DNA of 64,000 bases, from positions 14,002,001 to 14,066,000 of the forward strand of contig CM057235.1 in NCBI GenBank assembly GCA_029891385.1. Direction: 5' to 3'. A program made the translations under genes and the position numbers. Each line of letters opens with the position of its first letter. The first letter of the stretch is position 1. This document shows positions 9,290-57,700 of the stretch, piece by piece. This DNA comes from Erythroxylum novogranatense (Eukaryota > Streptophyta > Magnoliopsida > Malpighiales > Erythroxylaceae). The notes under the pieces are model-generated. The model worked only from the letters and a program-made list of their open reading frames with translations, did not search any database and was not told where the DNA came from.

Positions 9290-9599
9290 TAGTCCTAAGT
9301 ACTTAAAGGATTTCTTGGATGAATGGAGACGTGAAATTTGGATCACCATTTGACATAATGGTTGGGGATTTAGAGAAATGAAGATCTAGCTTTTTCTTTT
9401 GATCACTACTAGTTGTAATAATCTTCTAAACTCCTCTAGAGAGTCCATCAGTAATAGCACTGAATGTTTATCTACCCCATATAGAAGAGCTCATTCGTTA
9501 ATGAAAAAATGAAAAATTTTCATTTCCTACATTTGTAACGAAAGTTGAAGGATCCTTTTAGAGTAATTTGGTAAGAGATCATCCTAATAAGAAACTTGA

Positions 9600-12000: not shown

Positions 12001-12042
12001 CGGCAACTAACAATAGAAGAGCAGACAATACTTTTATAAGAG

Positions 12043-12459
12043 CTATGATGTGTCATCTCCTATGGTAACATCACCATATTGGAAAAGAAAGGTTTGATGA
12101 CATATTTTTGGAAACTCAATTGAATTCCATACTGTGTTGCGACAATTATGAGAGTAACCATTATAATCATAAATGTCGGGCATCAAATTACATGTGGGAT
12201 AAACCAAACATGCACAATCAACCTTAAAGTGCACCATACAAGAATATTTATAATTTAAAGGGCAGTAAGTCTTACGCTTATGGATGGAATGATCACTCGC
12301 AACTTTATCAAATATTTCAAATAGAATATCCTCATTTTTTATAAGACCAGGTGTATCAATGAGCTTCAAAAACATCGTTCCTTTAGCATAATAAACTAAA
12401 AAATTGATAATAGACTCATTTTTTATTTGTCCAACGATTTCACATGATTGAATACCCAT
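12043..12459 (-). pseudogene. hAT-type transposase fragment (DUF659-like)
   Basis: A 138-codon frame contains INFLVYYAKGTMFLKLID and, further on, IKNEDILFEIFDKV. These resemble the DUF659 region of plant hAT-derived proteins (INFLVY..KGT.FLKS.D...K....LFE.FD.VV). The characteristic continuation with a VTDN motif is missing, the rest of the frame is unrelated to it, and no zinc finger or dimerisation domain is near. I take it as a short dead remnant. The match is from memory of the family and moderate. Confidence 0.4.
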
Positions 12460-35575: not shown

Positions 35576-38500
35576 TTATGTGGAAGATGAAGCAGCCTTA
35601 ACTTGAGAGCTCCATAACGCATACTTGGCATTTTCCTTCTTAGATCTTCTCCACTCTCTCAATGCTGCAAGAAGGACGTGCATCCCAACTGGCAGGAAGA
35701 AGGGCTGCATAACATAAGTTTAAAAACATCATTACTCTTCTGCCCTTGTTCGTTAAACTCGATGCACCTCGCTAATCAACCACCCTAATGGACTTTAAAG
35801 CGAGAAAGACTGCTGTTGGCTCATGCTCGTGATGATTGCAAAGTAGCTTATGTTAGAGCCAAGGTCATGCGATTACATTTTGTCTACCCACATCATACTA
35901 CAGATTGATAATCAAGAGGGCTTCGAAATCAAATGGAATCATGAACAAAAGAAGAAATCTCTAGGAACATACCGAGTAGACTGCAAAGCAGTGCTCAAAC
36001 GAAAAGTAGCTGACAGACATTATAGATGGGTGGTAAAAAGCATCTTCTGCCAGAGATCTTGCTTGCCTTGAACACACTGACAAGAAGAGAATAAATTATT
36101 AGTTAGCCCATCTCCGATCATACAAAATGTAAGCGGAAGCTTTTACCAACTTGCAACAAGATCTACACAAACAAGTAATCTACAGTATTCTTACCAGCTG
36201 AGGCACCATAAGCCCCAATCGAGGCATTGGTATGAGCTGATTTCTCTGCCTCAAGGGAAAGCTTTACCTGATCAAAGAGAACAGAAAATCTGTACATCAG
36301 TTGTTTGACTCTCGCATCTAAAAGCAGTAGAATGGAAACTATGATGCGAAGTGCTGACAGCTCAAGCAGTGGCATCTAATTCAACCAAAAAGACCAGATA
36401 AAATATTGACTACATAGAAAAGCCTAAACATTCTATGAATCACAGGTCATGAAATACAAAGCGGTACCCATTGATAATGGAAAAGACCACGTATCTCGCA
36501 CCATATTGAAATGGAATAGGAAGGAACATTTGGAAAACCTAATAATACCATAGGGCAAAGACTTGACAAGGACACGAATAGAATAGATCCTTCAAGCAAG
36601 AACAAACTGTAAGGTTGACAGTTGGAAACATGGAGAGGAGAAGGAAGCTAAAATCCTTATTTAAATATTATATCTACTGACAGCCACGGTATACATTATT
36701 CAGTGAGATTACATTCCCTGTTTACTCATTTTGGGATCCATAAACTCAGTACCAAGCGTGCATACAAGTCAACAGAACTTTATGAAAATACTACCCCAAC
36801 TTACAGGCTTCTCTTCTATTGTTTACTTGCTTTGCTAGTTTATCCCTTTTAGGTGTGTTGAGCATGGAATCCAACTTGTTTATCATTAACAAAGAAAGTA
36901 ACGGTACCCAAACTCTAATTTTCACATAAAGATACCCCCATAACTGGTGAGTAGCCTTGACCCCCGAACACACTAAAAACTAATATATCCGTCTCTACGT
37001 GCTTTAAAATTTGTGTGTGCTTACAAAGCTACCTACAAAACCTGAATAGTATATAGTTGTAGATATATCCCAATACAAGTTTTGGATTGTACCATCATCA
37101 GAATATCCAGGATCAAACAGATATCTCCTTATCCCACTGAAATGTTTTATTGACCGGGTACAGAACAATTTGACTTTGCAGTATAGAAAATGTCATATAC
37201 TGCAAAATACAGATCAGGTAGAAAGCAACCTATGACTATCGCCTAAGTGCTCATAAATTTCACCAACGAATATGATACTTATCTAGGCAACTGACCTGCT
37301 TTCCAATATCATCCATAATAATCATCCTTGGCAATGATTGAACCTGCACGCATAATTTTCATCATAATAAGCAAAGAATCAAGTTGGATGAAGGTGATAT
37401 GAGTGCCCGAACGTACCAATCTTGAAAGAGAACTAAGGGTTGTGGCACTTGAATGAAGGCTGAAGCATGTATGCTGTCGAGATAAGAAATCCAGTTCCCT
37501 ATGGAAATCAGGGTGGAGAAGATGTTGAAGCAATACTTTTTTCAAGTTTCGAAACCTTCAGCAGTTATTATTTCACTATCACACATGTCTCAGAGATTAC
37601 ATTAAAGACAAAATGTTCTCACCAATAGTTTATAAGTGTCAATAATGAAGAAAGTAAATAACTTAAACAGAAAACAGCCTGTTAGGCAGTTGGAAATGGT
37701 TTGCATTTATTCACTTTCAAGTAATTCAGGTTTTGGCAAGCAAACTTATAATGTGAATCAGCTTGGATACCATGAGTTATACAAGTCTGAACTAGACTAG
37801 CCGCTCAGAAGATCATTTTTCTTACCATTCTGTGAAGCCACTTTCACTGGCTAAAAGGTTGTACGTGCTTGATGCACCCACATAAAGGCTATTAGATTTA
37901 AGACCAAAAAGTTGCCTGAATTGCCCCATAAAAACTTCGAAGATTTTATGAAGATCCTGTTTCAAAATGTTCACGTTTCAAATTTGGGAAACATTAACAG
38001 AAGCAATCTGCAGTAGTAACACACTGATTTTGAGTTATATCACACAACCATAAAATAATTATTTGCTCATTCATTTCTTTATGTGAACCATAAATGATAA
38101 CATTCATAAACAATGAAACTAATTATGAAAAGAGCATAATAAATGAGAATGAATCACCAGCTAACAGAAAATGATATCTGTTTTTGTGTAGGATCTAGTC
38201 ACAGGGCGACTCACAAGGAAATCCTCTTTTCCCTTGTTAGAGTTCTTCCCCTTCCTAGGCCCTAAGGTTGCTACTTAGAGAACTCATCTCTGAAAAACTT
38301 TCTGTCAACTGATTGTTAGCAAAATTATGACTGCCTTCTTATTCATCCTAATGCCCTATGAAATTGGCTAATACATGAGAGTTTTTAGGAAATAAAACAT
38401 AATAGGAATCAGATAACTTATTCTCTTACTAAAATAGACTTACAAAAATAATAGACTTCTTAAATGCGATAAATACTGCCTGGATAAGATAAGCACAACA

Positions 38501-41500
38501 GAAACATGAGAAAACTACTACAAAAATATAAGATAACTTCCTAATCAACTACTACCATCAGCCTCTAATTGCTATCCTTGTATCCTAAGAATATATCTGT
38601 TAAGTTACCAGTATAATGGTAGAAAATGATTAATAGTGTAGGTCCTGTATTCAGATGAAAATCGGCAGGAAGGAAATTACAAGCAACATTCGAGAGGTGA
38701 CCTTCTGTCCTTACACATATTCTATCCTAGTAAATTATGCCTACCTAATCTCCATTCCCCTTTGTCAACTAAATTTTCCCTGAACTAAAGCCCTACCCTA
38801 ATAACCATGCCACCTCATCCTTCTAGAATCTTGCCAGCAACAAAACAAACAACTAATAAAGCAGAAATAACAGATAGCAACCCTTCAGTATCAACCTTGG
38901 GCATTTGGGCTTTCCTCTAAATCGTTTGGCCCCTTTTCTTTACTCCTGAGCAAAAAAATCTTATCTGGAGGCCTATCAATACCCCTCACTTTGAGTGTCA
39001 CCTTGCCCTCAAGGTGAAAGATGCTAATTGATAGCAATACTGATAGCAATATGGGTCTTAAACTCATATTGACATATGCTAGGAGATTCACTAAGGTAGG
39101 GAGGAGTGAGTCACCAAACGGTTAGAGAAGTTAGTTAGAGGAGAGAGAGAGATAAGATACTATATATGGGAGGGGGTAGTAGAATAGGGTATCTTTTTGG
39201 CTATTGAACTTTCTCGGCTGTGAAGCTTGAGGGGCCATTGTTGGCTGGGCATAGACCTTGAGGAATTTCCTACGAGGCTATAGCTATTATCAATAATATT
39301 ACTATATTTCCACCCATTTTCTTATCATTGGTGCTTTCATTGAGAGCCCCAGTGTATGCAAACAAGGATGGCGCAACAGAAGTGGGAAGCGATGGAGGCA
39401 CGGATGACAGCAGTAGAGACGAAGTTGATGGACCATACGGTCCAGTTGGGCAACTTACATAAGGGAGTCGACGAGCTCTCTAGAGCGTTAGCGGCGATGC
39501 ACGCTGAAATGAGGGAAGGGTTCCAACGTCAAGCCACTCACCGGACACCAGAAGTCGGGTCGAGCTTGGTGGAGCGTGGGAAGTCGGTCCAGACAGAAGG
39601 GGGCAGTGGCGTCACATCCATGGCGTCGGAAGAGCACCAGCTCCGAGCCAAGAGGATAGAGCTCCCTCCATTCCAAGGTGAAGACCCGATCGGACGGGTC
39701 TCTTGAGCGGAGATGTACTTCGCTATTCAGGGGACTCCACCGGAGCTCCGGATACAGCTGGCTCAGATCTGCATGGACGGTATGACTTGGCACTGGTTTA
39801 AGGTGCTCTTAGCGTCGAGACCAGAGTTGGACTGGGAGACCTTCAAGAGGGCCTTGTTCGATCGGTATGGAGATCGTTACGTCGGGAACCCATTTTCTCA
39901 GCTGAAGGTGTTGACACAGCAGGGTACCGTGGATGAATATGTGGAGATCTTCGAGATGTTGATGGCTTAGGTTCCTCCTCTTCCCGAAGATCAATACATG
40001 GGACTCTTCCTTGGAGGGCTGCGAGAGGACATACGGCTGGAGGTAGTAGCGCTGGATCCTTCCTCTCGCTATCGTTTGATAACAGCAGCTCATGCGGTGG
40101 AGAGGAAGCTTACTCCACCAGCACACTTCAAGCCGACTGTGGGCTGGAGACCCACGGGCGGCCCACGAGTCGGGCCTCCCAACCCGACTGCAGGGAGACG
40201 CAACTGGGAGGGACCACGAACCGATATGGACCGACCCCAGGTGCCCACCAACAACGGCGCAAACCAATGGGGGACCCGGGAGGGAGGAGCTGATCGGCGT
40301 CCCGGCATGGAGAGGACCACCGACGGACGACCCAAGGGGACCAGACACCTTTCCTACCAGGAGTTGATGGAACGGCGAATCAAGGGCTTATGTTTCAAAT
40401 GTGGGCAACACTATAGCCCTAACCATATCTGCCCGGATAAACAACTACGGCTACTGATTTGGGAGGAAAACGAAGAAGAAGAGGGAACACCTTCTGGAGT
40501 TGAGCATAAAGAGGCGACCACAGTGGGAGAAGCATGGGAGATGGTCCATCGGTGCTAGACGAAGGGCCGAGGATGGGGAATTGGTTCAATCCAAGACTCT
40601 GAAAATGGAGGGCAAGTTATCAGGGATTCCCATCTTGCTCCTCATCGACAGTGGGGCAAGCAACAACTACCTGTCGCAGGACTTGGTGAATACCTTGGGG
40701 TTGCTTGGTCGTTCCAACAAATTGTTTATGGAGTGAAATTAGGAAATGGGACCAAGTGTTTTCACGGGGTAGGTGTAGGGATTGTCGGTGATAGTTGGGA
40801 ATGTGGAACCGAGGATGGATGTTTATATTTTGCAAATGGGAGGCATCGATCCGGTTTTGGGGCTGAATGGTTGGAAACTTTGGGAGAGGTAAGGATGGAT
40901 TTTAAGCGAAAACTGTGAGTGGGGATTTAAACATGGGAAAGAAGTAGTCACCTTGGGAGGCGAGGTGGTGAGCGGTCCCAACCGACTTGACCTTGCAAGG
41001 AGTGCTTCAACCAATCGCAATGGAGGTTCGAATGAGGATTCCAGTCTTGATGATGCTGCAGATGGTGGTGATTTGGAGTTAATTTTAAGACAAAAGGCTT
41101 TGGCAAATCTAAGAGGGTTCTGTGGAGGGTTCTCTTCCAATGCAAAGAGTTCGGTTGATCAAGAATATTGTTCTCAAAGAATACAGAAGATCCTGCTAAC
41201 CTTGCTGCACATACCGTCCGAAGAATCAAGAGCAGATTGTCGAATGGCTTGTGTTGTGGAAAGGAAACCAATTGAGGAAGCTTCATGGACAGCAATGTTC
41301 AAATACAGCAACAATTCCTCCCTTCGCCTTGAGGACAAGGCAGATTCTGTAGGGGGTGGAATTGATAGCAATACTGATAGCAATATGGGTCTTAAACTCA
41401 TATTGACATATGCTAGGAGATTCACTAAGGTAGGGAGGAGTGAGTCACCAAACGGTTAGAGAAGTTAGTTAGAGGAGAGAGAGAGATGAGATACTATATA

Positions 41501-44500
41501 TGGGAGGGGGTAGTAGAATAGGGTATCTTTTTGGCCATTGAACTTTCTCGGCTGTGAAGCTTGAGGGGCCATTGTTGGCTGGGCATAGACCTTGAGGGAT
41601 TTCCTACGAGGCTATAGCTATTATCAATAATATTACTATATTTCCACCCACTTTCTTATCACTAATTTATGCTGGATGGTGCCATAAGGCTCCCATGATG
41701 GCGCAAAATATAGCAAATTCTTGCATTTGATAGCACTTCAGTGGGACTAGTAGTCCTACCAAGGATGAACCAAAGAGAGCTTATGGTTCAACTTTTCATT
41801 CCAAATCAGCTTGAAGCACTGGAGGCATCTCTATGTTGGAGGCATTAGTACCTATCAAATCCTTAAGATGTAATACATGGAAAACCAAATGGATGGTGGC
41901 TGAGTCCAACAGTCCTAACTTGTATGCCACGGGATCAAATTTCTAAACAAATAGGTAGGGGCCGAAATAGCAGGGGGTTCATTTGTTTTCTTGGCTAGTG
42001 ATCTGCTATGGTAAAGGCGAATTTTCATGTAAACAAGATCATCAATTTGGAAGTGAACATCCTTTAGATGTTGGCTTGCCTGTTTTTTCATCCATTCATC
42101 TGCCACACTCAGATGCTCCTTGACTTCTTTAAGCATCAAGTTATGTTCTTTTAACTATTCCTCTACACTTTCATTATATGTACGCCGATTTGTATACCGC
42201 AGTAAAGGCAGTGGTTACCTTCCGTATACAATTTTAAAAGGCGTGAGCTTGGTGGCTTTGTCAAAAGTAGTGTTATACTAATATTCGCACCATGGTAACT
42301 GCTACAAAGACTTCGCAAGGAACTCCAAATTCACACACAAAATGAGTCAAAATCTAAGTACGATAGTTTTAACTTTTGCAATTCAACTCAACCTTACCAA
42401 ATTCCCCGTGTTTAAGGTGTTTCCCACAAAGGCCAAAGTAGACCCACGAATTTTACTTAGCCAACACAATAAAACGAATAGCAAGAAGAAGAAATAGATG
42501 CATAAAACTTTACAGCAAGATTGTCAACCTTTATATTTCTCTCAATCGATACAAAGGATAGAAAGCTCCAACTCTCTCTAATTTAATGAATGAGTTATTT
42601 ATATGCTTTTGGAGACTTATTGGGTAAGACTACAAGAAAGTGGGCACAAGGCCACTATGTCACTAACTTAGTGGTTGACATCCCTAACCACTTTAGGCAC
42701 TACTTTAGTGGGTGATTTACATAACTTACCACTATCCCACTTCTAACTAAAAGGAACATGTGATAAATGAAGATAAGACACCTCATCCATGTTCTTTGCC
42801 ATATCCTCCCACTTCTTCCATGATTCATCCCACTAACTTTGCCACATCAGCCATAATCTTCATCCAATGGTGAAGGTTAACCACGTTTCGAGCCAATTCA
42901 CACATGATTCGCCCAATGCTCACATATGGTCCAGTCATTCGTCCACGGTCCATCATTGGAGTATAATTTCGTCTTTAGTCCCACCAAAGACGTTTTAGGC
43001 AAGCCCAACTCACCCTAGTCAAGCCAATTAACACCCCACGGTCCACCAAAGCTAACCATGCTTGATCTTAATTGGTTAAGTTACCTTGGTTCCTTTAGCA
43101 TGCCTAATCCATGCTAGACGTTGGCCAAAGCTCACCAATGGCTAGCAAAAAAGGTCCTGCAATGTTGAGGGGCTAACAGTAAGCACCTGCAACTATGGGG
43201 ATGTGTCTATACAAAACAACAGGATAAGCTTCAACGCAATGGTTGATCACTTTAGTTTAGCAGTTCGTTTGGGGGAGTTTTGATAGAGTAAAGTAGGGAA
43301 TCTCCAGAAAAATGATCGGAATGTATTAATGAAACAGTTTAGAGCTATCGCTCCCCAGCCGAAGGCCGTACAATGGACAGAAATTAGAATAATCGATAAA
43401 TCTCTCATCATTGCTAACTAACATATATTCTCCTAGGAGGTACCCGTACACCCCACATAATATTCCCTTATTCTCCCTAACGGTTAACGTACGCATGCAT
43501 CACATTCCAACTCACACTCCAACTCACGCTCCAAATCATCAATCTCCTTCCACCTCAACGTCCCGCTTCTTCTTCCTCTGATAAACCAGTAACGGTTTCG
43601 GTTCATGTCTAACAATACGCTCTCCCTGGAAACAGACCTTGTCCACAAGGTCTGACTCAGGAAATTGTCCCCTAAAATCCGAACAGCTGATCCACGTAGC
43701 TTCATCAATTCCTTTGGCAGCCCACTTGACCAACAGTTGGTGACAAGGCATGGCAGGAGGGTCGAACGTCTTGGTCTCCAGGATGCACTCAGGAATGAAA
43801 CTTGGCTGTTCAACAAGTAAGGTGGAAGGAAGCTCACCTGAAACTTGATGGTCCCCTGCTGCCTGCTTAAGTTGAGAAATGTGAAAAATGGGATGGATCC
43901 GCGAAGTCATGGGCAAGTCTAGTTTGTACACCACCGGACTGAGTTTCTGCAGCACCCGAAATGGCCCATAATAACGCGGAGTGAGTTTATGATACACTCG
44001 TTGTGCAAGAGAGGTCTGGCGATGTGGACGGATCTTTAAGTACACCCAATCATCCACCTGGAACTCAACAGAACGCCTATGTTTATTGGCCTGCTTGGTC
44101 ATTCTATGCTGCGCCCGAAGCAAATTGTAACGGAGCTGCCTCAAAATTTCATTTCGGTCCTGATGGTCTGCTGCCACTGCTGCAATCTTGAATTCTCCCG
44201 GTAAATACTGAACAAGAGTAGGAGGTTTCCGATCATACACTACTTCAAAAGGAGTAGTTTGAGTGGCGCCTTGAAAATTGGTGTTATACCAATATTCGGC
44301 CCAATGCAACCAACGACTCCAAGCTTTAGGTTGTTCAGAAGAAAAGCATCGTAAGTAAGTTTCTAAACATCTATTCAAAACTTCCGTTTGGCCATCCGTC
44401 TCCGGATGGTAAGCGGTGCTCATCTTCAGATGGGTACCCCATCCTTTGAAGAATTCCAACCAAAAATTGCTCATAAATAAAGGGTCCCTATCACTAACAA

Positions 44501-47500
44501 TGGAGTGTGGTACTCCATGAAGCCTGACAATCTCCCTAGAAAAAACTTCAGCCACCGAACGTGCAGTAAATGGATGGCGAAGACCAATGAAATGGCCATA
44601 TTTACTCAAACGGTCGACTACTACCAACACACAATCAATTCCATGGGAACGAGGCATACCAGTGATGAAATCCATAGACAAATCCTCCCATACTTGAGTG
44701 GGTATGGGTAATGGTTGCAGTAACCCCGCAGGAGCTTGGGTGTTATATTTGTTGCGTTGACAGGTTGGACATTCAGCCACAAACCTCTGAATTTGTTTCA
44801 TCATCCCCACCCAATGGACGTTGGCAGCTACTCTTCGGTACGTCCTATAGGCTCCGGAATGTCCTCCTTGAGGGGTGCAATGGAACTCTTGAATTAACTT
44901 AGGAATCCACAAGGATGTAGCAGGTAAGAATAACTTCCCCATAAAAAAGATTCTGCCATTCACAATCTGATATTTCTTGAAATCAGCAGGGCAATCAATA
45001 ATCCGCCGTTTAAGTTTCTGGTAAGCCTCATCTGCTGCCAATTCTTTATCAAGATCTGTCCATTGGGTCCAGCAAGGGAAAGAAACTGCAGACAACTCTA
45101 CATCCTCCTGACGCCTGGACAACGAATCCGCAGCCCTGTTTAAGATGCCCGGCTTGTATTCGATGTCAAATTCATACCCAATCAGCTTGGCCACCCAGTT
45201 TTGCTGAGCCGGAGTCGTGATTTGCTGTTGAAGTAAATGCTTCAAGCTACAATGATCAGTACGCACAGTGAATTTGCCCCCTATGAGATATGGTCGCCAA
45301 TGTCGGATGGCCATTACAAGGGCCATCAACTCCTTTTCATAGGCTGGTTTAGCTAAATTCCGCGGCGCCAGACTCTTGCTGTAGAAGGCAATTGGTCGGC
45401 CTCCTTGCATTAATACTGCTCCTACCCCTCCCCCGGATGCGTCACATTCTACTACAAACGTTTGGTGGAAGTCGGGCATAGCTAGGATGGGTGCCGTAGA
45501 TAAAGCTTGTTGAAGTGTGGTAAAGGCGGTTTGCGCCTCAGCGGTCCATGAAAACTTATGAGAAGACTCCTTTTTCAGTAACTCGGTCAATGGACGTGCG
45601 ATGTTCCCATAGTTTTGTATAAACCGTCGGTAGTATCTGGTTAGGCCGAGGAAGGCCCTCACCCCTCTTACTGATCGAGGTTGAGGCCATGTGAGAATAC
45701 TCACCACCTTTGCCGGATCCATAGCAACACCATCCCCTGAAATTAAGTGGCCTAAATACTCAATTTTGGTATGCCCGAACTGACTCTTCTTTTTATTGAC
45801 AGCAAAGTGTTGCTCCTCCAATATTCCCAAAACCACCACTAAGTGATCCAGATGTTCCTCCCAATCCTTGCTATAAATGAGGATATCATCAAAGAATACC
45901 AGGACATACCGGCGCAAATACGGGCGAAAAAGCTCGTTCATTGTTGCTTGAAACGTAGCCGGTGCGTTCTTCAGCCCAAAAGGCATCACCTTGAATTCAT
46001 AATGCCCGGAGTGTGTTCTAAAGGCCGTTTTAGGAACATCTCCAGCTCGTACTCGAATCTGGTGGTATCCAGATCGTAAATCGACCTTGGAATAGAACCG
46101 AGCCCCATGTAATTCATCCAATAGTTCCTGTATTACCGGAATCGGATACTTATCTGCCACAGTCACCTTGTTCAGTTCCCTATAGTCTACACAGAACCTC
46201 CACCCTCCGTTTTTCTTCCTTACTAGCAAAACGGGACTAGAAAATGGCCCAAAACTTGGCTGAATGATACCTGTTGCCAGCATCTCGGATACTTGCCATT
46301 CTATTTCATCCTTTTGCGCGTGACCATAGCGATAAGGTTTGACGCTCACAGCAGTAACTCCTTGCTGCAAGGGTATACTATGGTCAATAGCACGTCGCGG
46401 AGGCAGGCCTGAAGGCTCATTAAACAGGTTTGCAAACCTCTGAAGTAGCTGTTGTAATTTCAACTCTTGTTCAACCGAACATTCCCCCTCAGCCGAATTC
46501 AGTTCCATCAACGATGCTTGCCAAATTACCAGGCCACAACTATTCGGACTTGATTTCTGCAGAAAACGAAGTGTTGCTGGAGCATTTACGAGAGAAGGAT
46601 CTCCATCTACCTTGACTGTTCGTCCACCAAACTGGAATTCCATAGTCATACGACCCCAGTTGGCTTTAACATCGCTTAATCAAGGTAACCACGAGACTCC
46701 CAAAATGAGGTCGACTCCACCTAAGGGAAACACAAAACAATCGACCAAAAACTTAGCTCCCCCAATTTCGACAGAAACATTCCGGTAGAGACCTTGGGTC
46801 TCTTCACGACGCCCATCTCCCAACCGCACGCCAGTCCGCACCGTTGGTTCAACATGGAGTCCCATCTTCTCAGCTGCCCTTTGAGTGACGAAACAATGGC
46901 TCGCCCCACTGTCGACCATAATAATCACGGCTACACCACAACCCAGCCCTCGTAGCTTCATGGTCTGGTGACTTCCACAACCACTGAGAGCAAAATAAGG
47001 AAGTTCGAGTCCCGTGAACTGCTGTTCGATCGGAAGTTCCTGTGGCTCCATCACCGGCGGCGCCTCCTCGCCCTTGTCCTCCGACGAATCGTCGTCGGCC
47101 AATATTACTGTGTGAAGCGAGGTCCCCTGACATTGGTGAAGAGGATGGTATGGTTGGAGGCAACGGTAGCAAAGCCCCTTTGCCCTAATTTCTTGGAACT
47201 CCTTTTGGGTAAACCGTCAGACTCCTCTGGTTGGGGCTGAACCCGTTTGGCCACTGGACCTAATACTACTACCTGCAGAATGAGCTGGCCCAGTGGTCCC
47301 CCTCCAGTGACTTCCGGATTGGGCCGCTCCTGCATTTGGGTAAGTTCCCCCAGCTCTAAAGCTACTCCTCCTGCCATCGGTAACTTGGAAGGTGGTCTGT
47401 GGCCCTTTATCCCCAACTACCGACCCTGCTTTCACCCCTAAGCCAAAGTCCTCACGTTGAAAATATGTCTGTACACTCTTCTTCTTGCCCAAAACCTCCT

Positions 47501-50500
47501 GTTCATGTTCGATTTCTCTGGCCAGATTCATTGTTCGATAGAGATCTACAGCCTCATGCGAACGTATCCTTGCCCTGATCTCCTCTTTTAGCCCATTCAG
47601 AAATTGCCCAATAAAAAATTCTTCTGAACATCCTCTAACTTGTACTGCTTTTGCCACGAATTCCTGGATAAACTCATCCACTAACCCATGTTGACGAACA
47701 GCCGCTAAAGCTTCAAAGGGGTTAGTCGCCAGTGCCCCTCCAAACCTAGTCAGTACTTCTCTCTTCACGTCTTCCCAAGTCATTAGAGGTTTCCAATCCT
47801 GAAGCCAACTTATCCAGTGGAGAGCATGACCCTCCATGCTCACTAAAGCTAACGTGACCTTCTTCTCTTCCGGGGTTTCTTGCACCTGAAAATATTGCTC
47901 CGCTCGTCGGACCCAACTCATGGGATCAACACCGGTAAAGTTCGGCAGCTCAATACGCTTGGCGGCTACCTGCACATCATCAAGAGTCACTATCCGTGCC
48001 GTTGACTGCCCAGGAACAGGGGTACTGGCCGAGCCTCCCTCTGTCATCGACGAATGCCCACCCAATGTTTCTTCCACTGCTTTCCCTTTCAGCGCAGCAA
48101 CGAGCATCGATTTAATCTCACTAAGTTCTTCATCAAGCCCTGTTAGTCGTTGCTCCATCACTCCCAAACTCCTCTCTACCACTTCTAGTCTATTCTCCAT
48201 TCTGGTGTTAGTCATGGGTTCCACGCTCACCGCACCAATTTGATAGAGTAAAGTAGGGAATCTCCAGAAAAATGATCGGAATGTATTAATGAAACAGTTT
48301 AGAGCTATCGCTCCCCAGCCGAAGGCCGTACAATGGACAGAAATTAGAATAATCGATAAATCTCTCATCATTGCTAACTAACATATATTCTCCTAGGAGG
48401 TACCCGTACACCCCACATAATATTCCCTTATTCTCCCTAACGGTTAACGTACGCATGCATCACATTCCAACTCACACTCCAACTCACGCTCCAAATCATC
48501 AATCTCCTTCCACCTCAACGTCCCGCTTCTTCTTCCTCTGATAAACCAATAACGGTTTCGGTTCATGTCTAACAAGTTTACTATGAGCAAAATAGTTCCT
48601 ACCAAAATTTACTTATAAAAACTCATCTTTGTCAGACACAATAGATCCTGGAAAGCCATAGAGCTTAACAATATGCTGGACAAATAATTCAGCCATGATG
48701 AAGGCAGTGCAGGGATGTTTAATTGCAACAAAATAGGCATATTTACTGAATCTATCCACTCCCACCATAATTGCACTCAACCCTACTGATTTGTGTAGCC
48801 CTTCCACAAAATCCATATAGATATTATCCCACATCTGTTCCGAAATAGGAAAAGGCTGAAGTAATCCTATTGGAGAAAGTGATAAGGTTTTGTTTTGTTT
48901 TATTAGCCAATTTCACAACTGTACACATGTTTCTTTATATCATCCCTCATCCCTTCCCAGTAGAGCTCCATAATCACCCGCTTGTAGGTCTTTAAATAGC
49001 ATTAATGCCCTCCCACCAAAATGTCATAAATTTTAACCAAAATTTTTGGAATTAATTTTGAAATTTTAGAGAGTATCAATCTGTTCTTGTAGCAAAGCTA
49101 GCCGCCAAACAAACTCAACTTAGGTTTGCAATTTGGATCTGACTAGGTCAAGGCTACAGTCGAATCTTCTTAGAGCACTGTTACGTTGACGCACTATGTC
49201 ATTGTAATATTCAAGAGTTCGGGTATGCGAGAGAGCATCTGCTGCCTTATTTTCCTCTCTTGGTTTATATTCAATATCAAAATTAAATTCCAATAACTTA
49301 GTCCACCATCGTTAATGCTCCTCAGTGAAGAGCCTTTGCTCAAGTAACTGTTTCAAGCTATGTTGGTTAGTTTTGACCAAAAATTTTCTACCTAATAGGT
49401 AATGTTGCCACTTTTGGACTACTAATACTACAGCCATGAGTTCGCTTCTATAAACTAACTTCAAGCAAGCACACAAAGCTTGACCAAAACAACAGTTCGG
49501 TTCCGTTGCATCAATACTGCCCCTAGTCCCAAGCCTATCTCAATATTAAACTATTCATCAATATTAGGAAGAGCCAATATCAATAGTTGTACCATAGCCT
49601 TCTTAAAATGATGTATAGCTACGGCTACTTCTTCCCTCCAATTGAATGCATCTTTCTTTAACAGATGGGGCGCTATCTTTCCATAGTCTTTGACAAATTG
49701 CCAGTAGTAGCATGTTATTCCAAGGAAGCCTTGTAATTCTTTCAAAACTTTTAGTATCAGCCACTGCTCCATTACCTTCACCTTTTTAAGATCAATAGTC
49801 ACACCTTCCTTAATTACATGGCCTAGATATTTAATCTATTTTTGCAAAAAAAATAAAGCATTTTTTTAAAACTAGTGAATGCGTGATGAATTTTAAGGAT
49901 GGTTAGTACTTCCCTCAAATGTTGCAAATGCGCTTCTATGGAGCTATTGTAAGTTAGTATCTGAAAAAAAAAAAAAAACTAAGCCCCTTCTGCGACAATG
50001 GTGCGAAAATGGTATTCATGATAGTCTGAAATGTTGTTGGTGCATTGGTTATGTTGAAGGGCATGGCCAAAAACTCGTTGTCGACACATAATTTTTGGGA
50101 TATCCTTGATCTTTGCCCAAATTTGATGGTATGTTGACTTTAAATCTGGCTTAGTAAACATTCGAGCCCCTCTCAACTCATCAAATAACTCCTTCACCGT
50201 AAGGATGGGAAATTGATCAGGAATTGTCGCCTTATTCAAAGCTTAGCAATCTACATAAAATCTACAACTATCATCCTCTTTTCGACTAGGAGTATCGGGA
50301 TTCAAAAAAGGACTTAAGCTACATTGGACGATCCCTACAGTTAACATCTCCTTTACCAACCTTTCTATCTCATCCTTCTGAGTATAGGGGAACTAATAAG
50401 GTCAGAAATTGATGGGAGTTGTCCTGGGTTTTATGTTGATTTCTCGGCCTTTTTGTCACCATAGGGGAAGCTCACTTGATCAATGGAAAACTTCTTGGAA

Positions 50501-53500
50501 TTCTTCATCAATCCTCACACCTCATAAAGTTGGTCCTGTTAGCCTACACATCTCAGTCATCATTCCTTGGCATTCTTTGACAATAATCTTGACCATAACT
50601 TTTGGGGATATGACTGTTCTACTTAAACTAGGGCCCCCACATAGCACTACCGTCTTTCCCCCAATTGATGTCTTCATTGTTAAAGAGTGTTAATTGAAGT
50701 CCATGTGTCGCGTTACAAAAAGCCGTTTGAGCCCTAAGTCTTTTGAAAAGCAAAAAATCTTCTACCATCGTAACCTCTTGTATTCAAAGTACAACCCCCT
50801 TACAGATCCTTTTACTTGGTACATACATGTCAATTCCTATTGATACCCCATAACTCGCCATCTTTGTGACTAGGATGCCCAATTTTGCCACCAACTCTTC
50901 ACCGATGAAGTTATGGGAAGCCCCACAATGCCCCTTATTATTCCTCACAGTTTCATCGAGTGTGGAGAGCTTAATCCAATGATTGAATTTAGTGTCAAAC
51001 AGATTTCCCCACCAGCAACAACACTTTAGCTTCTGATTGCCCTTCATTTGTCCCTAAATTGCCTAGTGCTTCATCATAAAGAACATCTAAGATTTTCAAT
51101 TCCCAGTTTTACATCTTTTCACAAAATGATATTTTTCATCGCACTTGAAGCATAACCCCTTCTCCCTCTTGGTTTGAATTTCAGTTGCAGACATTCGTTT
51201 AAAGGTTGAATTAAGGTTATTAGGTGTAGCAGTCATGAATTTTAGGGGTGGGTTTGTTGTGTTGGTAGTTTGGTGGGTGGTTGGACTAACATTAGGTTGG
51301 GTCCAAGTGGTATATCAATTTGGGCTATAGATGACAATGGAGCTCCAATTAGTTTGGGTCTTTTTTAAAGTTGACTGCATCATTGTCCTAGACTGGGCTC
51401 AGAACCAAGTTACCTTTTTCTATCTTCTTGACTAACTCCATTAATTCTAGTAACCCTGAGCAATTCATCGTCATTAGTTCCCCCTTTTACACCTTCATCA
51501 AGCCATTAAGAAATACTGCCACTAAAGTGTCATCATCTGGTTGTTTTAGTGGAATGGTTAACGCCTCAAACTCGTTTCGATATTGCACCACCGTGGATGT
51601 CTGCCACAATGATAGGAGGCGACATTGATGAGTCCCTTTGCATTTTGGTAAGCATCTTCTCAGAAGTTGGGTCTTTAACTCATCCCATATCAGTATGGGC
51701 TGTCAATTCTCCTCCTATTGTAACCACACCAAGGCGGCGCCTCCGACACACCCGTACTGATTTCAACCTTTTTGCCTCTCTCAATTTGTTTACGAAGAAG
51801 TACCTCTCCACTAAAAGAACTGATGAGGTCAAGTCATCCTCCCTATCATATGTGGGCATCTCTAGTTTATGATCATACCTGTTGTGGCAGACTAGAACAT
51901 TACCACTAGATCCTGCTATTCCACGAGTTGCCGCCATCTCTAAACTTGAAGTTCAGTTGTGGGTCCTATCCCCACTTGACTATGCTATGCTTTTCCTCAC
52001 ATAAATGGTGCTCTTGTGAAGGGCGTTCAAGACCTCATCTAGCTTTTGGTTAAAAGAAGAAAACAAGGAGTCAAGGTGAAACAGATGACTTTCAATCACC
52101 GAAAACTTCTCTTCCATATTTTTTACTCTTGCTTCCATCCTTGTCGTTGGCATTCCCTAGGTTCTAAACAAACTTTGATACCAAATTTGTTAAGTTACCA
52201 GTAGAATAGTAGAGAATGGCTAATTTTTAGGTCTTTTATTCAAATGAAAATCAGTATGGAGGAAATTCTAGACAACATTCGAGAGGAGCGATTCTCTCCT
52301 TACACATATTATATCCTAGAACATATATGCCTACATGCTCTCTACTGCCCTCTACCGACTAAATATTCCCTTATCTGACACCCTACCCTAACAACCATCC
52401 ACCACAACCTTCTAAAATCTTGCCAGCAACAAAACAACTGCTAAAGCAAAAATATTAGATAGCAACCCTTCAATATCAACTTTAAAAATGTTGGGCTTTT
52501 CCTCTAATCAACCCCTTTTCTTTCCTTTTGAGTGGAAAAGCTTAACCAGAGGCTTATTAGTATCTTGTATATCATTATTCCCCTCCTAGACAAAGAGCTT
52601 GCTCAAGCTCGAATTCAAGATTAGTCTCTTAAAATATTCACAGAACTCCCAAGAAATCTCCTCCAATGGTAGTCCCTGCCACTGCACCAATAATTCCCAC
52701 CTTCCCTGTTGAGTGTAGATCATAAAATTGCCTCAAGGACTAGACTTGCGTTGCCTGCCAACAATGGTTTAAGAGGGACCACAGCTGAAGGTGGAGCTTC
52801 CTTGAACTCATTTAGTGTGACACATGCACCACATCATGAATTTTACTTCCCCACCAATAAGGCCAAACAACACGTGAACTTGCTAACTTGCCTAACCACC
52901 TGAAATGGGCCGAAACACTTAAGGCTAATAATTGCCTATGGGGTTATAATTTCAGCCACATCCATGCCCCCACCAAAAGTTGATCTTCTGATGGTGAAAG
53001 TCATGTGCTTGCTTCATTTTTGTTTGTCCCTGGATTATTGCTTAGACCTTTGAAGGACCCAATGAGACGCCAAACAATGTGACCTAAGTATGTCACATGG
53101 GACTACCAAAAGGTGCTCATGGATATCTAACAAACAAGTGAGCACACAATAAATTCAAAACAGTGCACAAGTGTTGTAAATGTTCAACCGATGTCATGCT
53201 ATACATCAATATGTCATATAAATAAATAAATAAGCCAACACAAACTAATGCAAGTTAGATTGAGAGATCTTGTTCATTAAGACTTGAAAGGTTGACGGAG
53301 TATTAATGAGGCTGAAAGCCATGACAAAAAACTCAAAATAGCCATGACCGGTCCAAATGTCTATAGTTACCTCATCGATCTAGCTTGGAAAAATTTCCTC
53401 GCTCCATATAATTCAACCGACAATTCCTCCACCATTAAAATAAGGAACTTATCTTCTAGCATTTAACACCCAATTGCTGACACAAAATCTCCATGACCCA

Positions 53501-56500
53501 TCATGCTTAGGAGCAAGCAACATAGGAGAGGAGAATGGTCACTAACTTGACTAATGATGCCACACGCCAACATATCCTCACATTGTCGCTCAATCTCATG
53601 ATTCTCATCTTTCAGCCAATGAGGGTATCTATAAGGTTGAACTACTACAAGCGTTGAGCTTGGGAGGAGTGCATTTTGGTGGTCACAAGCTGGAGGTAGC
53701 TTTGTTGGTTAACCAAATAAGTCTGAGAATTCAACCAATAACTTCTCTAACTCAACCTAGGGTGGAATAGACTCTTGTATATGATGAGCCCCTACCTACC
53801 TATCCAACCGTTGTCCCTACCACTTAGCTTGGTTCCCTCAAAGGTCAAAGCTCATAGTTAAATCAACAAAATCCCATGTAAAACCACAGTTGTGCTTCCT
53901 TATTAAGATGCAATGTTGTCAACTTCACCTTTTCTCCTTAGGGCGTTCACTTATTTCCAAAGAACAACTCACACTTATAGATCCAAATCAACGGAACATC
54001 AGTACTATCATATGAAGAAAATTCTAATGTAGAATACCTAGGAACAAAAGTCTCTCTGCCTTGCTCAATACTTCTTTCCTCCCTTTTGGTACTTATAGGT
54101 ATAGTTGTTGCTCGCCACCTAATTGTTGTTGTTGTCGTGCCCCTTCAACTCTTGCAAAATCTCCTCTAGTTGCAAGTTCAAATATTTTTCACTAGACTTC
54201 CACCATAGAAAATCTCTGCTTGATATTTCACATGAACACATCCATTCGGCTTGACAAGTCTATAGAGTCATCCGTGACATCTAGCTTTGATACTAAATTG
54301 ATATGTGTTTTTGAGTAGGATCTAGTCCTGAGATTACTCACAGAGAAATCCTTCTTTTATTTGCTAAAGTTCTTCCCCTATTTTTTAGGGAAAATTTTGA
54401 TTGCCTTCTTATTCATCATAATACCCTTTAAATGTGCTGAATACATAAAGTATTTAGGAACTAAAATAGAATAGGAATCTGCTAACTTATTCTCCCGCTA
54501 AAAATAGACTTTCGAAAATAACAGACTTCCTAAATAAGATAATTAGTACAAAAACACAAGATAACTACTATAGAAACATAAGATAATTTCCTAATTAGCT
54601 ACTACCATTAGCTCCTAACTTCTCTCCTTTTATATTTCTTCCATAAGAACACATCTTGCATATCATAATAATATGCATTAGAAAATTAAAATGTTTGATA
54701 CAAATGAAACGTAACATATCCATTGCTAGTTCAAGGAAATATAATGAGAAATGAAAATTATTAAAATGGAAATCTGGGAAGATTACCATCTTATGTTGAG
54801 AATGTCAAGTCCCAAACCATGACAAGTTTTACATTACTTGTTCTAGCCAATAAAACCTTCTTGATTGATTGTTTAGAAAGATGTAATCTAGGAAAAGGAA
54901 ATCTTGCGCATAATCATGCATATTAGATGCCCCCATACACAACTAAATTGCAAGCTCGAGTCCAAACAAAGTAATTCCATTCTACATGGCTTAAACACAC
55001 TTATAAGCTTTCACTACATATCATCACAAAAGATGATTTTTTTAATGTGAAACAAATAGCAATTAGTACAAGTCACCACTGTTATAGCCTAAATGAATAA
55101 GCGTAGGTAACATTAATGCTTTCATGACAAATCTAAGGGTCATGAGATTAGTCTAGGCTTGTTGAGTTGACAAATCCACTAATGACGGAACCATGAGATC
55201 CACACCTACCATTTGTACACATAATAGTAACATCTTTTCACTCAACTTTCAAAATATCATTGTTCCAACTAGAATTTCAATTATCTTTCAGTCAACCTAA
55301 GGACATTTGTTTAAACCAGCATACTGTCATACTTTGCAGCCAATAGAAAGAAAACTGACCACATGCATTACACTTCCATAGTGAGTTAAAAAGCAACTCT
55401 GGGTTTATTAGAGAAAAAATCACCTCAGTTGATAGCATATGCCTGCCAGGAAGGTTATATTCTGAATCTTTTAAACAGCTTTTTGGGTTCCATACCATGA
55501 CCCCTCCCCACATCTGCAATAAATAATTTGAAACAGTAACAACATTAGAAAATGAGCAAATAGCTAAGTTTGAAGCACATGAAGATGTGAATAACTGGAG
55601 ATATAAAGCCATTTGTGGTTGACACATCTCCATCTGGGAGCCGGAGAAGCAGAGGACATTCATTTCTAGAAGGTACATATCTGAAAAGAAAAATTAAAAT
55701 TTGAGCGGTGAGTTTTAGATAAAGATGTTTCTGTATTTATTAGCAAAAATATAGCACATAAGCGATACAAATTAAAAGGTCCCAGCAAGGAATATAACAA
55801 ACTTAAAGAAAAAGGCACTCTATGAGATCCAAATCAAGGTTTCTGCCACAGGTTTCATGCAATTAACCAAAGAGAATATGTTTTGAGATGATCTTGCCAT
55901 TTCACATGCTACTTTACAGATAATAACTAAACCCCATCATCGCATATACCACTAATAAGTTAAATAGAAAGTATAAGAGATGAGAACAAGTGAAAAAGAA
56001 TATACACCACAAATTGCAATATCTTTGACCGTCCACCTGCCGCAACAGAGGTGTCTAAATGCCATTCATTTGAGTTCACCTGTTGACACCAAAGCCTTCA
56101 GGATTGGAAAAGATGGAATATCCATATTTTCTGCTTCTTTAGTCATCAAAATGTAGTAAAAAATTGAAAGGAACATACAAAGAAAGGAAGATATCCAGCA
56201 TCAAAGATATGGCTGTGTAAATTTTCATCCCAGGAAGAAAATGCTGCCTTCGGGGTGTGGTACAAAACCTAATCAAAATGCAAGCATTAATGGAAAACAA
56301 GTCATAAAAAATTCAACGATAACAAGTTTCATAAGACCCAGAATGACGTCTTTACCTGGCTTTCAACACTAATATTAGCTATAGGTGCTAATGCTTCAAG
56401 CACGGGGGCCAATAGATTTTCATCTACCAACTCAAAATCCCTGCAAAGTAAGGTAATGAAGATTCTTGAAATCAATTCAATCGTAGTTATACCAGAATCA

Positions 56501-57490
56501 AACACATTATCAATGTAGACAATCATCAGGTATATTCCAACCTCAGTTAAAAGCCCTGTACTAAAACACATGGTTTCTCTACTTCATTATCAATCTAAAA
56601 CCATTACAAACACAACAAGCTCATTACCAATCATAAATCCAATCACCGGGATTGGAATTAAGCAGACTGAAAGAGAGAACAATCTTGCCATCAGCACCCA
56701 CAGGCATAAACTCCGAAGGAATCAAACCTTCCTCTCTGCCACCGTTGGCAAACAACTTGACCAGTACCTCCGCCGCCACTTCCTCCGCCGTCTCCAAAGC
56801 ATCCCTTCCCACTATCCAAGCGTGGCGGTGCTTTCCCACCACCGCCTTCACTCCCTTCTCCTCATTCACAACCACCACCACGCTATACACTTTACCGCCA
56901 AAACTGGAACACGCATTTCCCAACACAGACTCCAAAGCTTCATCCACAGCCTCATCATCATCAGAATCAAAGTTGATTTGACCTATGCCACCGCCACACT
57001 TGTACAAGCAAGGCAGAGGCTCCCCAAATGAGTGAAGACGACAGGCACTGTGTCCGGCCTCGACGGCGACAGTGAGAGTGAAATTAGCGGTGCATGAGCC
57101 GCATTTAGGGGTTGGGGAGGTAAGTTTGGTAATTTGGGAGAAAAGTTTGGACCGAAGAAGATCAGGATTGAAGTGATTATTGGGATTGGAAAGAATGAAG
57201 ATTGCCTGGAAATGGAAAGGGAATAGTACTGGGTTGGATTGGATGTGGTCGGAGAGGGTTTGGATCTCGCGGAAGGGAAGTGGAGAGCGGTAGATTTCTA
57301 CTGATTTCCACAACATCGGGAAACTTAGAAGGAAAGAGAAAAGGACACAGAGAGTGAGCTTGAGGCGCTTTGAACCTGGCTTTGTGTTACGCATGGTTTT
57401 GGGGTCGAAATCAAAATCAGTATGTGGTGTGTTGAGAACATCAGAAACGTTTTGCCCTGGATTTGAAGGATCTGATGAGATTTCCGCCAT
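35576..57490 (-). CDS. PIGS: GPI transamidase subunit PIG-S, 12 exons, 617 aa
   Basis: PIG-S is a subunit of the ER-membrane GPI transamidase that attaches GPI anchors to proteins. Exons in transcript order (minus strand): 57490-56628, 56440-56356, 56268-56179, 56079-56006, 55680-55596, 55513-55424, 37956-37826, 37498-37417, 37343-37296, 36267-36195, 36076-35973 and 35704-35576. All junctions are GT-AG and the sum is 1,854 nt, exactly 618 codons. An N-terminal membrane segment (about residues 43-62) is followed by the lumenal region with [20 protein letters not shown] and [14 protein letters not shown], then [32 protein letters not shown] and [11 protein letters not shown]. Later come [20 protein letters not shown] and a C-terminal membrane segment ([20 protein letters not shown]). 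Length fits plant PIG-S. Intron 6 is 17,467 bp of nested retrotransposons, and all coding exons look intact. Confidence 0.9.
39029..39327 (+). repeat. 5' LTR of element A
   Basis: This 299-bp direct repeat has its partner at 41363-41661. It contains a tatatatggga box at about 39166-39176. Confidence 0.9.
39356..40558 (+). pseudogene. Gag of element A, broken
   Basis: One frame runs from ATG 39356 to 40558 and is broken by a TGA at 39704-39706 and a TAG at 39968-39970. An N-terminal coiled region ([20 protein letters not shown]) precedes the capsid-like part ([60 protein letters not shown]). A plant-type zinc knuckle follows ([17 protein letters not shown], about 40390-40440). Protease follows in another frame. 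Confidence 0.8.
40561..40920 (+). pseudogene. Retropepsin of element A, broken
   Basis: The block [20 protein letters not shown] (with the DSG active-site motif) lies at about 40620-40680, one frame away from gag. The end of the protease domain appears as [18 protein letters not shown], ending at 40918. A stop and frame change lie between them. Confidence 0.7.
41005..41200 (+). other. Apparent host-gene fragment captured inside element A
   Basis: Between retroelement protease sequence and the pol tail an open frame reads [20 protein letters not shown], then [20 protein letters not shown] and AKSSVDQ. It does not fit any retroelement domain. It resembles a motif I recall from plant nuclear proteins ([19 protein letters not shown]...). 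The stretch stands where RT, RNase H and integrase should be. Immediately after it the frame joins the pol tail ([29 protein letters not shown]). I infer capture of host transcript sequence during reverse transcription. The match is from memory. Confidence 0.5.
41363..41661 (+). repeat. 3' LTR of element A
   Basis: This is the 299-bp partner of 39029-39327, with the same start and end bases and four transitions. Confidence 0.9.
41667..42320 (-). pseudogene. Integrase C-terminal remnant of element B
   Basis: The minus strand reads LPWCEY(stop)[14 protein letters not shown] at about 42300-42230, and then [20 protein letters not shown] and [19 protein letters not shown] (42139-41915). This is the segment after the DDE core in Ty3/gypsy integrases. 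The rest of the pol tail lies beyond element A at about 38979-39024 ([11 protein letters not shown]). Confidence 0.7.
42320..43185 (-). mobile_element. Probable solo LTR inside the integrase of element B
   Basis: Integrase homology stops near 42320 and resumes near 43190 ([11 protein letters not shown] at about 43240). The intervening 0.87 kb is non-coding. On the minus strand it starts TGTTAGCCCCTCAACATTGC, an LTR-like start, and contains a tatataaata box at about 42600 with a plausible transcript region downstream. The 5-mer to the right is gtaag, and gcaag stands near the left edge, a possible worn target duplication. The exact left end is uncertain. Confidence 0.5.
43281..43614 (-). repeat. 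3' LTR of element D
   Basis: This 334-bp repeat has its partner at 48241-48574. The last 25 pol codons extend into it. Confidence 0.92.
43539..46649 (-). CDS. Pol of element D: RT, RNase H, integrase, chromodomain-like tail
   Basis: An intact 1,036-codon frame in phase with gag. RT has [10 protein letters not shown] (residues about 152-161), [13 protein letters not shown] and the active-site VFFDD (about 251-255). RNase H runs from [13 protein letters not shown] (about 398) to AADSLSR. Integrase has an HHCC finger (H590, H597, C627, C630) and the D660, D720, E756 triad ([31 protein letters not shown]). The C-terminal [20 protein letters not shown] fits a degenerate chromodomain, used by this lineage for heterochromatin targeting. 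The ATG at 46649 is only an ORF start; translation would normally begin at gag. Confidence 0.92.
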   Translation of the reverse strand: MTMEFQFGGRTVKVDGDPSLVNAPATLRFLQKSSPNSCGLVIWQASLMELNSAEGECSVEQELKLQQLLQRFANLFNEPSGLPPRRAIDHSIPLQQGVTAVSVKPYRYGHAQKDEIEWQVSEMLATGIIQPSFGPFSSPVLLVRKKNGGWRFCVDYRELNKVTVADKYPIPVIQELLDELHGARFYSKVDLRSGYHQIRVRAGDVPKTAFRTHSGHYEFKVMPFGLKNAPATFQATMNELFRPYLRRYVLVFFDDILIYSKDWEEHLDHLVVVLGILEEQHFAVNKKKSQFGHTKIEYLGHLISGDGVAMDPAKVVSILTWPQPRSVRGVRAFLGLTRYYRRFIQNYGNIARPLTELLKKESSHKFSWTAEAQTAFTTLQQALSTAPILAMPDFHQTFVVECDASGGGVGAVLMQGGRPIAFYSKSLAPRNLAKPAYEKELMALVMAIRHWRPYLIGGKFTVRTDHCSLKHLLQQQITTPAQQNWVAKLIGYEFDIEYKPGILNRAADSLSRRQEDVELSAVSFPCWTQWTDLDKELAADEAYQKLKRRIIDCPADFKKYQIVNGRIFFMGKLFLPATSLWIPKLIQEFHCTPQGGHSGAYRTYRRVAANVHWVGMMKQIQRFVAECPTCQRNKYNTQAPAGLLQPLPIPTQVWEDLSMDFITGMPRSHGIDCVLVVVDRLSKYGHFIGLRHPFTARSVAEVFSREIVRLHGVPHSIVSDRDPLFMSNFWLEFFKGWGTHLKMSTAYHPETDGQTEVLNRCLETYLRCFSSEQPKAWSRWLHWAEYWYNTNFQGATQTTPFEVVYDRKPPTLVQYLPGEFKIAAVAADHQDRNEILRQLRYNLLRAQHRMTKQANKHRRSVEFQVDDWVYLKIRPHRQTSLAQRVYHKLTPRYYGPFRVLQKLSPVVYKLDLPMTSRIHPIFHISQLKQAAGDHQVSGELPSTLLVEQPSFIPECILETKTFDPPAMPCHQLLVKWAAKGIDEATWISCSDFRGQFPESDLVDKVCFQGERIVRHEPKPLLVYQRKKKRDVEVEGD
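46680..47216 (-). pseudogene. Zinc knuckle and retropepsin segment of element D
   Basis: This part is in the same frame as gag. It contains [16 protein letters not shown], an acidic linker, then [20 protein letters not shown] (DSG active-site motif) and [17 protein letters not shown] at 46680-46682 ends it, and the frame resumes immediately with [15 protein letters not shown]. Confidence 0.85.
47217..48215 (-). pseudogene. Gag of element D (gag-pol frame up to the first TGA)
   Basis: The start [20 protein letters not shown] at 48215 is the first ATG after the LTR and primer-binding region. The longer open frame from 48371 begins inside the LTR and is less likely. A coiled N-terminus precedes capsid-like sequence ([64 protein letters not shown]). 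The frame is stopped by TGA at 47217-47219 and continues in phase beyond it with a zinc knuckle ([14 protein letters not shown]). Confidence 0.88.
48241..48574 (-). repeat. 5' LTR of element D
   Basis: This 334-bp repeat is followed on the minus strand by aattggtgcggtgagcg, the presumed primer-binding region, before the gag start codon at 48215. Confidence 0.92.
48580..52187 (-). pseudogene. Gag-pol remains of element B (gag to integrase core)
   Basis: In minus-strand order there are: gag fragments (52160-51430); a zinc-knuckle-like [14 protein letters not shown] at about 51110-51160; a protease-like block [16 protein letters not shown] at about 50930; RT ([20 protein letters not shown] at 50239-49979, followed by [16 protein letters not shown]); RT/RNase H pieces at 49802-49551 and around 49260-49480; and the integrase core ([20 protein letters not shown] and DRFSKYAYF, 48834-48613). 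Stops and frame changes are frequent. The integrase continues on the far side of element D at 43280 and again at 42320. Confidence 0.75.
54666..55423. other. Original PIG-S intron 6 sequence, right side
   Basis: AT-rich intron sequence between the right LTR of element C and exon 6. No gene or repeat structure is recognised. The left host part of this intron is 37957-38171. Confidence 0.6.
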
Positions 57491-57591: not shown

Positions 57592-57664
57592 GCTGTCTTA
57601 GCTCAGCTAGTAGAGCGTATGGGTTTTAACCAAGTGGTTGTAGTTTCGATTCCCATTGACGGCA
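57592..57664 (+). tRNA. Degenerate tRNA-Lys (anticodon UUU), possible pseudogene
   Basis: The 73-nt cloverleaf has acceptor GCTGTCT/TGACGGC (one mismatch, one GU), D-stem GCTC/GAGC (perfect), anticodon stem TATGG/CCAAG (one mismatch, one GU) and loop GTTTTAA. Anticodon TTT is at 57625-57627. The T-loop is TTCGATT on a weak stem (two mismatches). The A-box-like TAGCTCAGCTAG is good, and the B box reads GTTTCGATTCC with the conserved first GG changed to GT. A short T run (ttttt) follows about 10 bp downstream, suitable as a Pol III terminator. It lies alone in the 210 bp between the divergent PIG-S and PPR start codons. The mismatches suggest a decayed copy, but internal promoter elements are largely retained. 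Confidence 0.65.
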
Positions 57665-57700
57665 TGATATTTATTTTTCTTTGGTGGCGCTCTTTCAACG

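Follow-up and report, generated by a model that had tools for sequence, protein, structure and literature searches.

A 64,000-nucleotide stretch of the genome of Erythroxylum novogranatense (assembly GCA_029891385.1, contig CM057235.1, positions 14,002,001 to 14,066,000; hereafter the window, in which position 1 is the first letter) carries a predicted gene for PIG-S, a subunit of the glycosylphosphatidylinositol (GPI) transamidase. The sixth intron of this gene, 17,467 bp long, houses a nest of long terminal repeat (LTR) retrotransposons that entered it one into another. The gene is the only one for PIG-S found in the assembly and is very probably functional: the nest would have grown within the intron, with exon 6 still being spliced to exon 7 over its whole length.

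Structure and identity of the PIG-S gene

PIG-S lies on the minus strand and comprises 12 exons, from an ATG at 57490 to a TAA ending at 35576, with a product of 617 amino acids. Upstream of the large intron are exon 1 (56628..57490, starting at the ATG), exon 2 (56356..56440), exon 3 (56179..56268), exon 4 (56006..56079), exon 5 (55596..55680) and exon 6 (55424..55513, donor GAG/GTGATT). Downstream of it come exon 7 (37826..37956, acceptor AAACAG/GATCTT), exon 8 (37417..37498), exon 9 (37296..37343), exon 10 (36195..36267), exon 11 (35973..36076) and exon 12 (35576..35704, with the TAA at its end). All 11 introns have GT-AG borders, including intron 6 (37957..55423, minus strand, phase 0), and the 12 exon phases are compatible. 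An earlier, sequence-only reading of the window had traced a single twelve-exon PIG-S frame with undamaged coding exons, and this stands, since the phases join without any stop or frameshift; the positions it gave for exon 6 (55513-55424) and exon 7 (37956-37826), with 17,467 bp between them, were exact.

The frame of exon 1 alone matches the PIG-S profile PF10510 with 70.1 bits, against a Pfam cut-off of 26. The translation is identical, at 617/617 residues, to the NCBI protein K2173_018675 of E. novogranatense. The human PIG-S of solved structure aligns with it over residues 220-598, a region that includes the junction between exons 6 and 7 and within which the C-terminal exons fall. When 13 plant relatives, hand-picked from the 120 matches listed, are aligned with the protein, that junction (...HMLSTE/DLHKIF...) is free of gaps. 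With PF10510 above its cut-off and collinearity with both plant and human PIG-S, the locus is identified as that of the GPI transamidase subunit. The sequence-only reading had feared that annotation would split the gene in two. This did not happen: the public model K2173_018675 is the whole 617-residue protein, spanning intron 6, and its unbroken length rules out a split annotation of PIG-S.

Anatomy and age of the nest

The anatomy of the nest was obtained from self-comparison together with a reading of the element borders. Between the outer ends of the LTRs of the oldest element, A, lie 16,494 of the 17,467 bp of intron 6 (94%). Only 973 bp are left outside A, and the ancestral intron would therefore have measured about 1 kb. 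The earlier claim that the intron is almost entirely nested LTR-element DNA is thus borne out, and can be refined to four LTR elements and one probable solo LTR, inserted in a definite order. The similarity within each LTR pair far exceeds what chance would give, with BLAST E-values of 2e-136 for C, 7e-119 for D, 1e-76 for B and 3e-46 for A.

Element A (38172..54665, minus strand, sense to the gene) has outer limits that enclose all the others. One of its LTRs is at 54665-54299; the other, split by element B, consists of 52574-52560 and 38597-38172. A reverse transcriptase-like remnant of A is found within 53147-53638. No target duplication of A is recognisable, its flanks TATTA and TTTTC being different, which is not surprising in so old an element. 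Element B (38598..52559, minus strand, sense), also old and of Ty3-like type, sits 15 bp inside the 3' LTR of A, with its own LTRs at 52559-52188 and 38978-38598 and flanks GATAC/GATAT. What is left of its pol region (48591-50380) and of its integrase region (42194-42299) resembles element C.

Three further inserts lie within B. Element C (43281..48574, minus strand, sense) is young, with 334-bp LTRs (TG...CA) that show a single difference, and has the target duplication AAACT on both sides. Its Pfam domains come in the order gag, protease, reverse transcriptase, RNase H and integrase, the zinc-binding domain of the integrase being above the cut-off and its core (rve) below it, and the element is assigned to the Ty3/Gypsy LTR retrotransposons. 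Its gag-pol is a single frame with two in-frame stops, despite LTRs that differ at only 1/334 positions. Element D (39029..41661), also young, is antisense, on the plus strand, a direction read by eye from sequences resembling a polypurine tract and a primer-binding site. It has 299-bp LTRs with four differences, the target duplication CTAAT on both sides and an interior of 2 kb. A scan of three of its open reading frames, one on the minus strand and two on the plus strand, gave no Pfam match; a protease-like stretch is visible by eye only. With its LTRs and target duplication, and neither reverse transcriptase nor integrase in those three frames, D is a candidate non-autonomous LTR element. 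Element E (42300..43178, 879 bp, without assigned strand), also read by eye, interrupts the integrase region of B; with ends TG...CA and flanks CTTAC/GTTAC, it is probably a solo LTR, or else some other insert.

The order of events follows from the geometry of the borders and from the distances between LTRs: A went into an intron of about 1 kb, B into the 3' LTR of A, and E, D and C into B, the order of D relative to C being read from the LTR distances alone. Kimura two-parameter (K2P) distances are 0.273 for A (363 aligned columns), 0.245 for B (370), 0.0136 for D (299) and 0.0030 for C (334). Two rates in use for such purposes are 1.3e-8 and 7e-9 substitutions per site per year, a slower, tree-like one being 2.5e-9. 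The first two rates place the insertion of A at about 10-19 million years ago, B at about 9-17, D at about 0.5-1.0 and C at about 0.1-0.2; at the slower rate the figures become 55, 49, 2.7 and 0.6 million years, respectively.

Are exons 7 to 12 still in use?

If splicing over the nest had ceased, the exons beyond it should have decayed. Residues 430-617, encoded by exons 7 to 12, show 67-80% identity with the 13 relatives, compared with 64-76% in residues 201-429; the poorly aligned stretch 1-200 was excluded from the comparison. Had these exons, 567 nt in all, been idle since the insertion of B, about 69 substitutions, three stops and five indels would be expected. There is neither a stop nor a frameshift among them, an outcome with a P of about 2.5e-4 under idleness since B; reckoned from the insertion of A, with five indels in its LTR alignment, P is about 1e-3. 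Set against the decay that the LTRs of B lead one to expect, exons 7 to 12 without stops or frameshifts make it likely that exon 6 is spliced to exon 7 across 17.5 kb. Decay of these exons, considered as a candidate, was rejected on their conservation together with the lack of stops and frameshifts.

The sequence-only reading would have been undermined by another intact PIG-S locus with the present one transcribed only in part. Neither a PF10510 search nor a protein search of the assembly found a second locus: 3/3 profile matches and 11/11 protein matches sit at the locus described here, and a second copy in this assembly is on that account rejected. It is of consequence that in Arabidopsis homozygous pigs-1 plants were unobtainable; a transgene restored pollen tube function, not the survival of homozygous seedlings (PMC7437025). 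With PIG-S apparently in single copy, and with homozygous Arabidopsis mutants missing, it is unlikely that a dead single-copy gene would have persisted.

To be sure, several points weigh against a functional gene that is spliced over its nest. Judged by eye, exons 5 and 6 have weak-looking donors (GTTATT and GTGATT), and prediction alone may underlie the public model. At the columns that are invariant in the other 13 sequences, the PIG-S protein of E. novogranatense departs in 6/87 cases downstream of the intron and 4/96 upstream; the same count in the other 13 gives 0-6 downstream and 0-4 upstream, so that the protein studied here has the highest or joint highest count in both regions. On the whole it may be evolving a little faster, with no clear excess beyond intron 6. 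The decay test is itself rough, as it assumes LTR-like neutral rates and uses indels counted by hand (n=7 for B), and the LTR ages are rough too. Finally, the authors of the Arabidopsis work allowed that a linked second mutation may cause the seedling death that the transgene failed to rescue (PMC7437025).

Proposed history and rival readings

In the history that we favour, intron 6, about 1 kb long in the ancestor, would first have received element A in sense orientation; B would then have entered the 3' LTR of A, and E, D and C would have entered B, leaving splice sites and coding exons untouched. Since intron 6 is non-coding, and since later elements landed in already dead DNA once A was in place, insertions neutral to splicing would have been tolerated. 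RNA polymerase II would transcribe the whole nest and the spliceosome would join exons 6 and 7 over 17.5 kb. DNA and H3K9 methylation would silence the nest, while ASI1/IBM2-EDM2, the system that handles such introns in Arabidopsis, would suppress early polyadenylation.

The gene might instead be broken, with only exons 1 to 6 transcribed, or with two partial transcripts, exons 7 to 12 being a relic. The sense LTRs of intron 6 do hold potential polyadenylation signals, but exons 7 to 12 keep an open, in-phase and conserved frame, those at the C-terminus lie in the region aligned to human PIG-S, no other PIG-S locus was found in this assembly, and Arabidopsis yielded no homozygous PIG-S mutant (PMC7437025); a broken gene is thus very unlikely. 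An artefact of assembly, with the nest mis-joined into the gene or present in one haplotype only, appears very unlikely. A single assembly was examined, and near-identical LTRs such as those of C are a typical site of assembly errors; yet the 5-bp duplications of C and D are perfect, B sits 15 bp inside an LTR of A between the flanks GATAC and GATAT, and the LTR pair of A encloses the whole set, a consistency of nesting that random joins would not produce, although the nest may be confined to one haplotype.

Another view goes further than a functional PIG-S spliced over its nest: the intron would be heterochromatic, full-length PIG-S would need ASI1/IBM2-EDM2, and with loss of the marks transcripts would end in the intron and yield a shortened protein. 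We give this regulated read-through somewhat less than an even chance. It is known for genes of Arabidopsis and rice (PMC10241880; PMC7145194), the genome encodes an ASI1/IBM2-like gene, and there are sense AATAAA sites within intron 6, one of them in the 5' LTR of B; AATAAA is, however, scarcer on the sense strand (6) than on the antisense strand (11), in raw counts. The old elements are poor in CpG, with observed/expected ratios of 0.29 in A and 0.24-0.39 in B, against 0.71 in C and 0.63 in D (0.44 in E and 0.62 in exon 1). This depletion fits old methylated DNA, but as a sign it is weak, because the native flanks of intron 6, short and AT-rich, are just as low (0.23-0.25) and introns 7-11 stand at 0.48. 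Within the LTR pairs of the two young elements, C and D, every difference is a transition (5/5 in all). Also on the negative side, Pfam detected no RRM in the ASI1-like protein, and in rice 980/1,967 introns containing transposable elements (TEs) had no overlap with heterochromatic introns (PMC7145194). If exon 6 is read on into intron 6, 43 residues follow before a stop, which predicts a protein of 472 residues (429 + 43) without the C-terminal part. PIG-S, otherwise intact, does have TEs within one of its introns, which is one mark of the intronic-heterochromatin class; heterochromatin over intron 6, handled by IBM2/ASI1-EDM2, is plausible.

An ASI1/IBM2-like gene with a TE-filled intron of its own

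A BAH profile search of the assembly returned 14 matches, two of which, on C11 and C9, were judged by eye to be of the ASI1/IBM2 type. The C11 gene encodes the annotated protein K2173_025922, of 674 amino acids, whose exons map in order to C11:40757896-40740022 on the minus strand and whose BAH domain scores 48.5 bits against a Pfam cut-off of 30.8. A draft query of this gene showed 44-48% identity over 97-100% of its length to several relatives, some of them named ANTI-SILENCING 1 or IBM2; many relatives bear the name ANTI-SILENCING 1, and one is called 'ANTI-SILENCING 1, Increase in Bonsai Methylation 2, SHOOT GROWTH 1'. Arabidopsis IBM2 is described with a BAH domain and an RRM (PMC7145194). 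In K2173_025922 no RRM was matched by Pfam at E-values up to 1, an RRM-like stretch being visible by eye only, and among the relatives listed for the gene few carry PF00076. By its similarity to these relatives the product is identified as an ASI1/IBM2-like protein.

This gene has a 10,590-bp intron (40750920-40740331, GT-AG) placed between ...RTRLHMHREM and KEAVSTSHYSQ..., before the last two coding exons. The intron holds a Ty3-like LTR element of 5,217 bp in the sense direction, with the target duplication CTTGT on both sides and LTRs of 297 and 250 bp (K2P 0.072 over 250 columns, with 47 gap columns); its frames match reverse transcriptase with 85.1 bits and RNase H with 43 bits in Pfam. 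At the same place the C9 paralogue has an intron of 119 bp. A factor that would help read-through at PIG-S may thus need such help for its own gene. One may even imagine that full-length mRNAs of PIG-S, of other genes with TE-filled introns and of the ASI1 gene itself all require ASI1, making up a feedback loop that senses the state of genome silencing and couples it to GPI anchoring, but this is an improbable proposal. It would parallel the intron of IBM1, which acts as a sensor in Arabidopsis (PMC11265718). We found no report of a TE-filled intron in ASI1/IBM2 itself in a non-exhaustive search that covered the titles and abstract openings of 12 of 377 matching papers, and the occurrence of such an intron in an ASI1-like gene may be new.

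Other features of the window

Between PIG-S and a PPR gene that is divergent from it (57668-59536, plus strand) there is a match to a tRNA gene at 57592-57664 (Rfam RF00005, 36.6 bits, cut-off 29), which ARAGORN does not return. Elsewhere, a tandem array of a 48-bp unit occupies 493-1328 (about 17 copies, 81% matches), and diverged repeats, both direct and inverted, are clustered over 3590-12296, with for example 9942-10582 matching 10854-11522 at 90%. The kilobase 18001-19000 is extremely AT-rich (GC 0.09) and has a 258-bp tandem repeat.

PIG-S among known genes with repeat-filled introns

An intron of 17.5 kb is large, yet long gaps are not rare in this genome. In the genes for two further GPI transamidase subunits, neighbouring matches are separated by about 3.6 kb (PIG-T, C8:53234312-53239841) and about 1.6 kb (PIG-U). 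Hence long introns are probably common in a genome of 1.3 Gb, and the pairing of PIG-S with the ASI1-like gene, two genes with large introns, may be coincidental.

Grapevine offers the broadest comparison, with 2,563 genes, supported by expressed sequence tags, that contain 2,697 introns of 3-100 kb; these introns consist of more than 80% repeats and are filled by LTR elements and long interspersed elements, and some of the genes were wrongly split by annotation (PMC3058033). As at PIG-S, exons are conserved there, and LTR retrotransposons, some of them very recent, have enlarged the introns. Splicing was proven by transcripts in grapevine, while here we have one locus, known from its DNA, with an explicit five-step nest and an unsplit annotation; moreover, Copia elements outnumber Gypsy in grapevine introns, whereas the Ty3/Gypsy type is found in PIG-S (PMC3058033). 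Of 37,866 rice gene models, 4,227 are reported to have heterochromatic introns; when OsIBM2 was lost, some of these showed early polyadenylation, and 93/454 of the commonly changed genes had heterochromatic introns (PMC7145194). The likeness to PIG-S lies in a long TE-bearing intron within a presumably active gene, in a genome that has an ASI1/IBM2-like gene. In contrast, methylation and dependence on IBM2 were measured in rice and PIG-S is known from sequence alone; the rice introns are also biased to the 5' end, unlike the nest of PIG-S, which is in intron 6 of 11 (PMC7145194).

Polymerase II of Arabidopsis transcribes across heterochromatin that lies within introns, where premature polyadenylation is seen in mutants of ibm2 and edm2 (PMC10241880). 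As cases in point, IBM1 (intron 7), RPP7 and PPD7 have intronic heterochromatin that is read by IBM2/AIPP1/EDM2 (PMC7145194; PMC10241880; PMC11265718). They share with PIG-S the intronic repeats, and read-through gives their full-length product, as it would at PIG-S. The PIG-S nest differs in being much longer and made of several elements, in another gene, where regulation of the kind established for those three is putative. PIG-S is a clear case of a known plant gene class, and nothing at this locus lies outside published descriptions.

The case is a clean one. A conserved gene, apparently in single copy, kept its frame while one of its introns was filled with retrotransposons in an order that can be resolved and dated. 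Together with the ASI1-like gene, PIG-S provides two loci where it could be tested whether long-lived TE-filled introns need ASI1/IBM2-EDM2 beyond Arabidopsis and rice.

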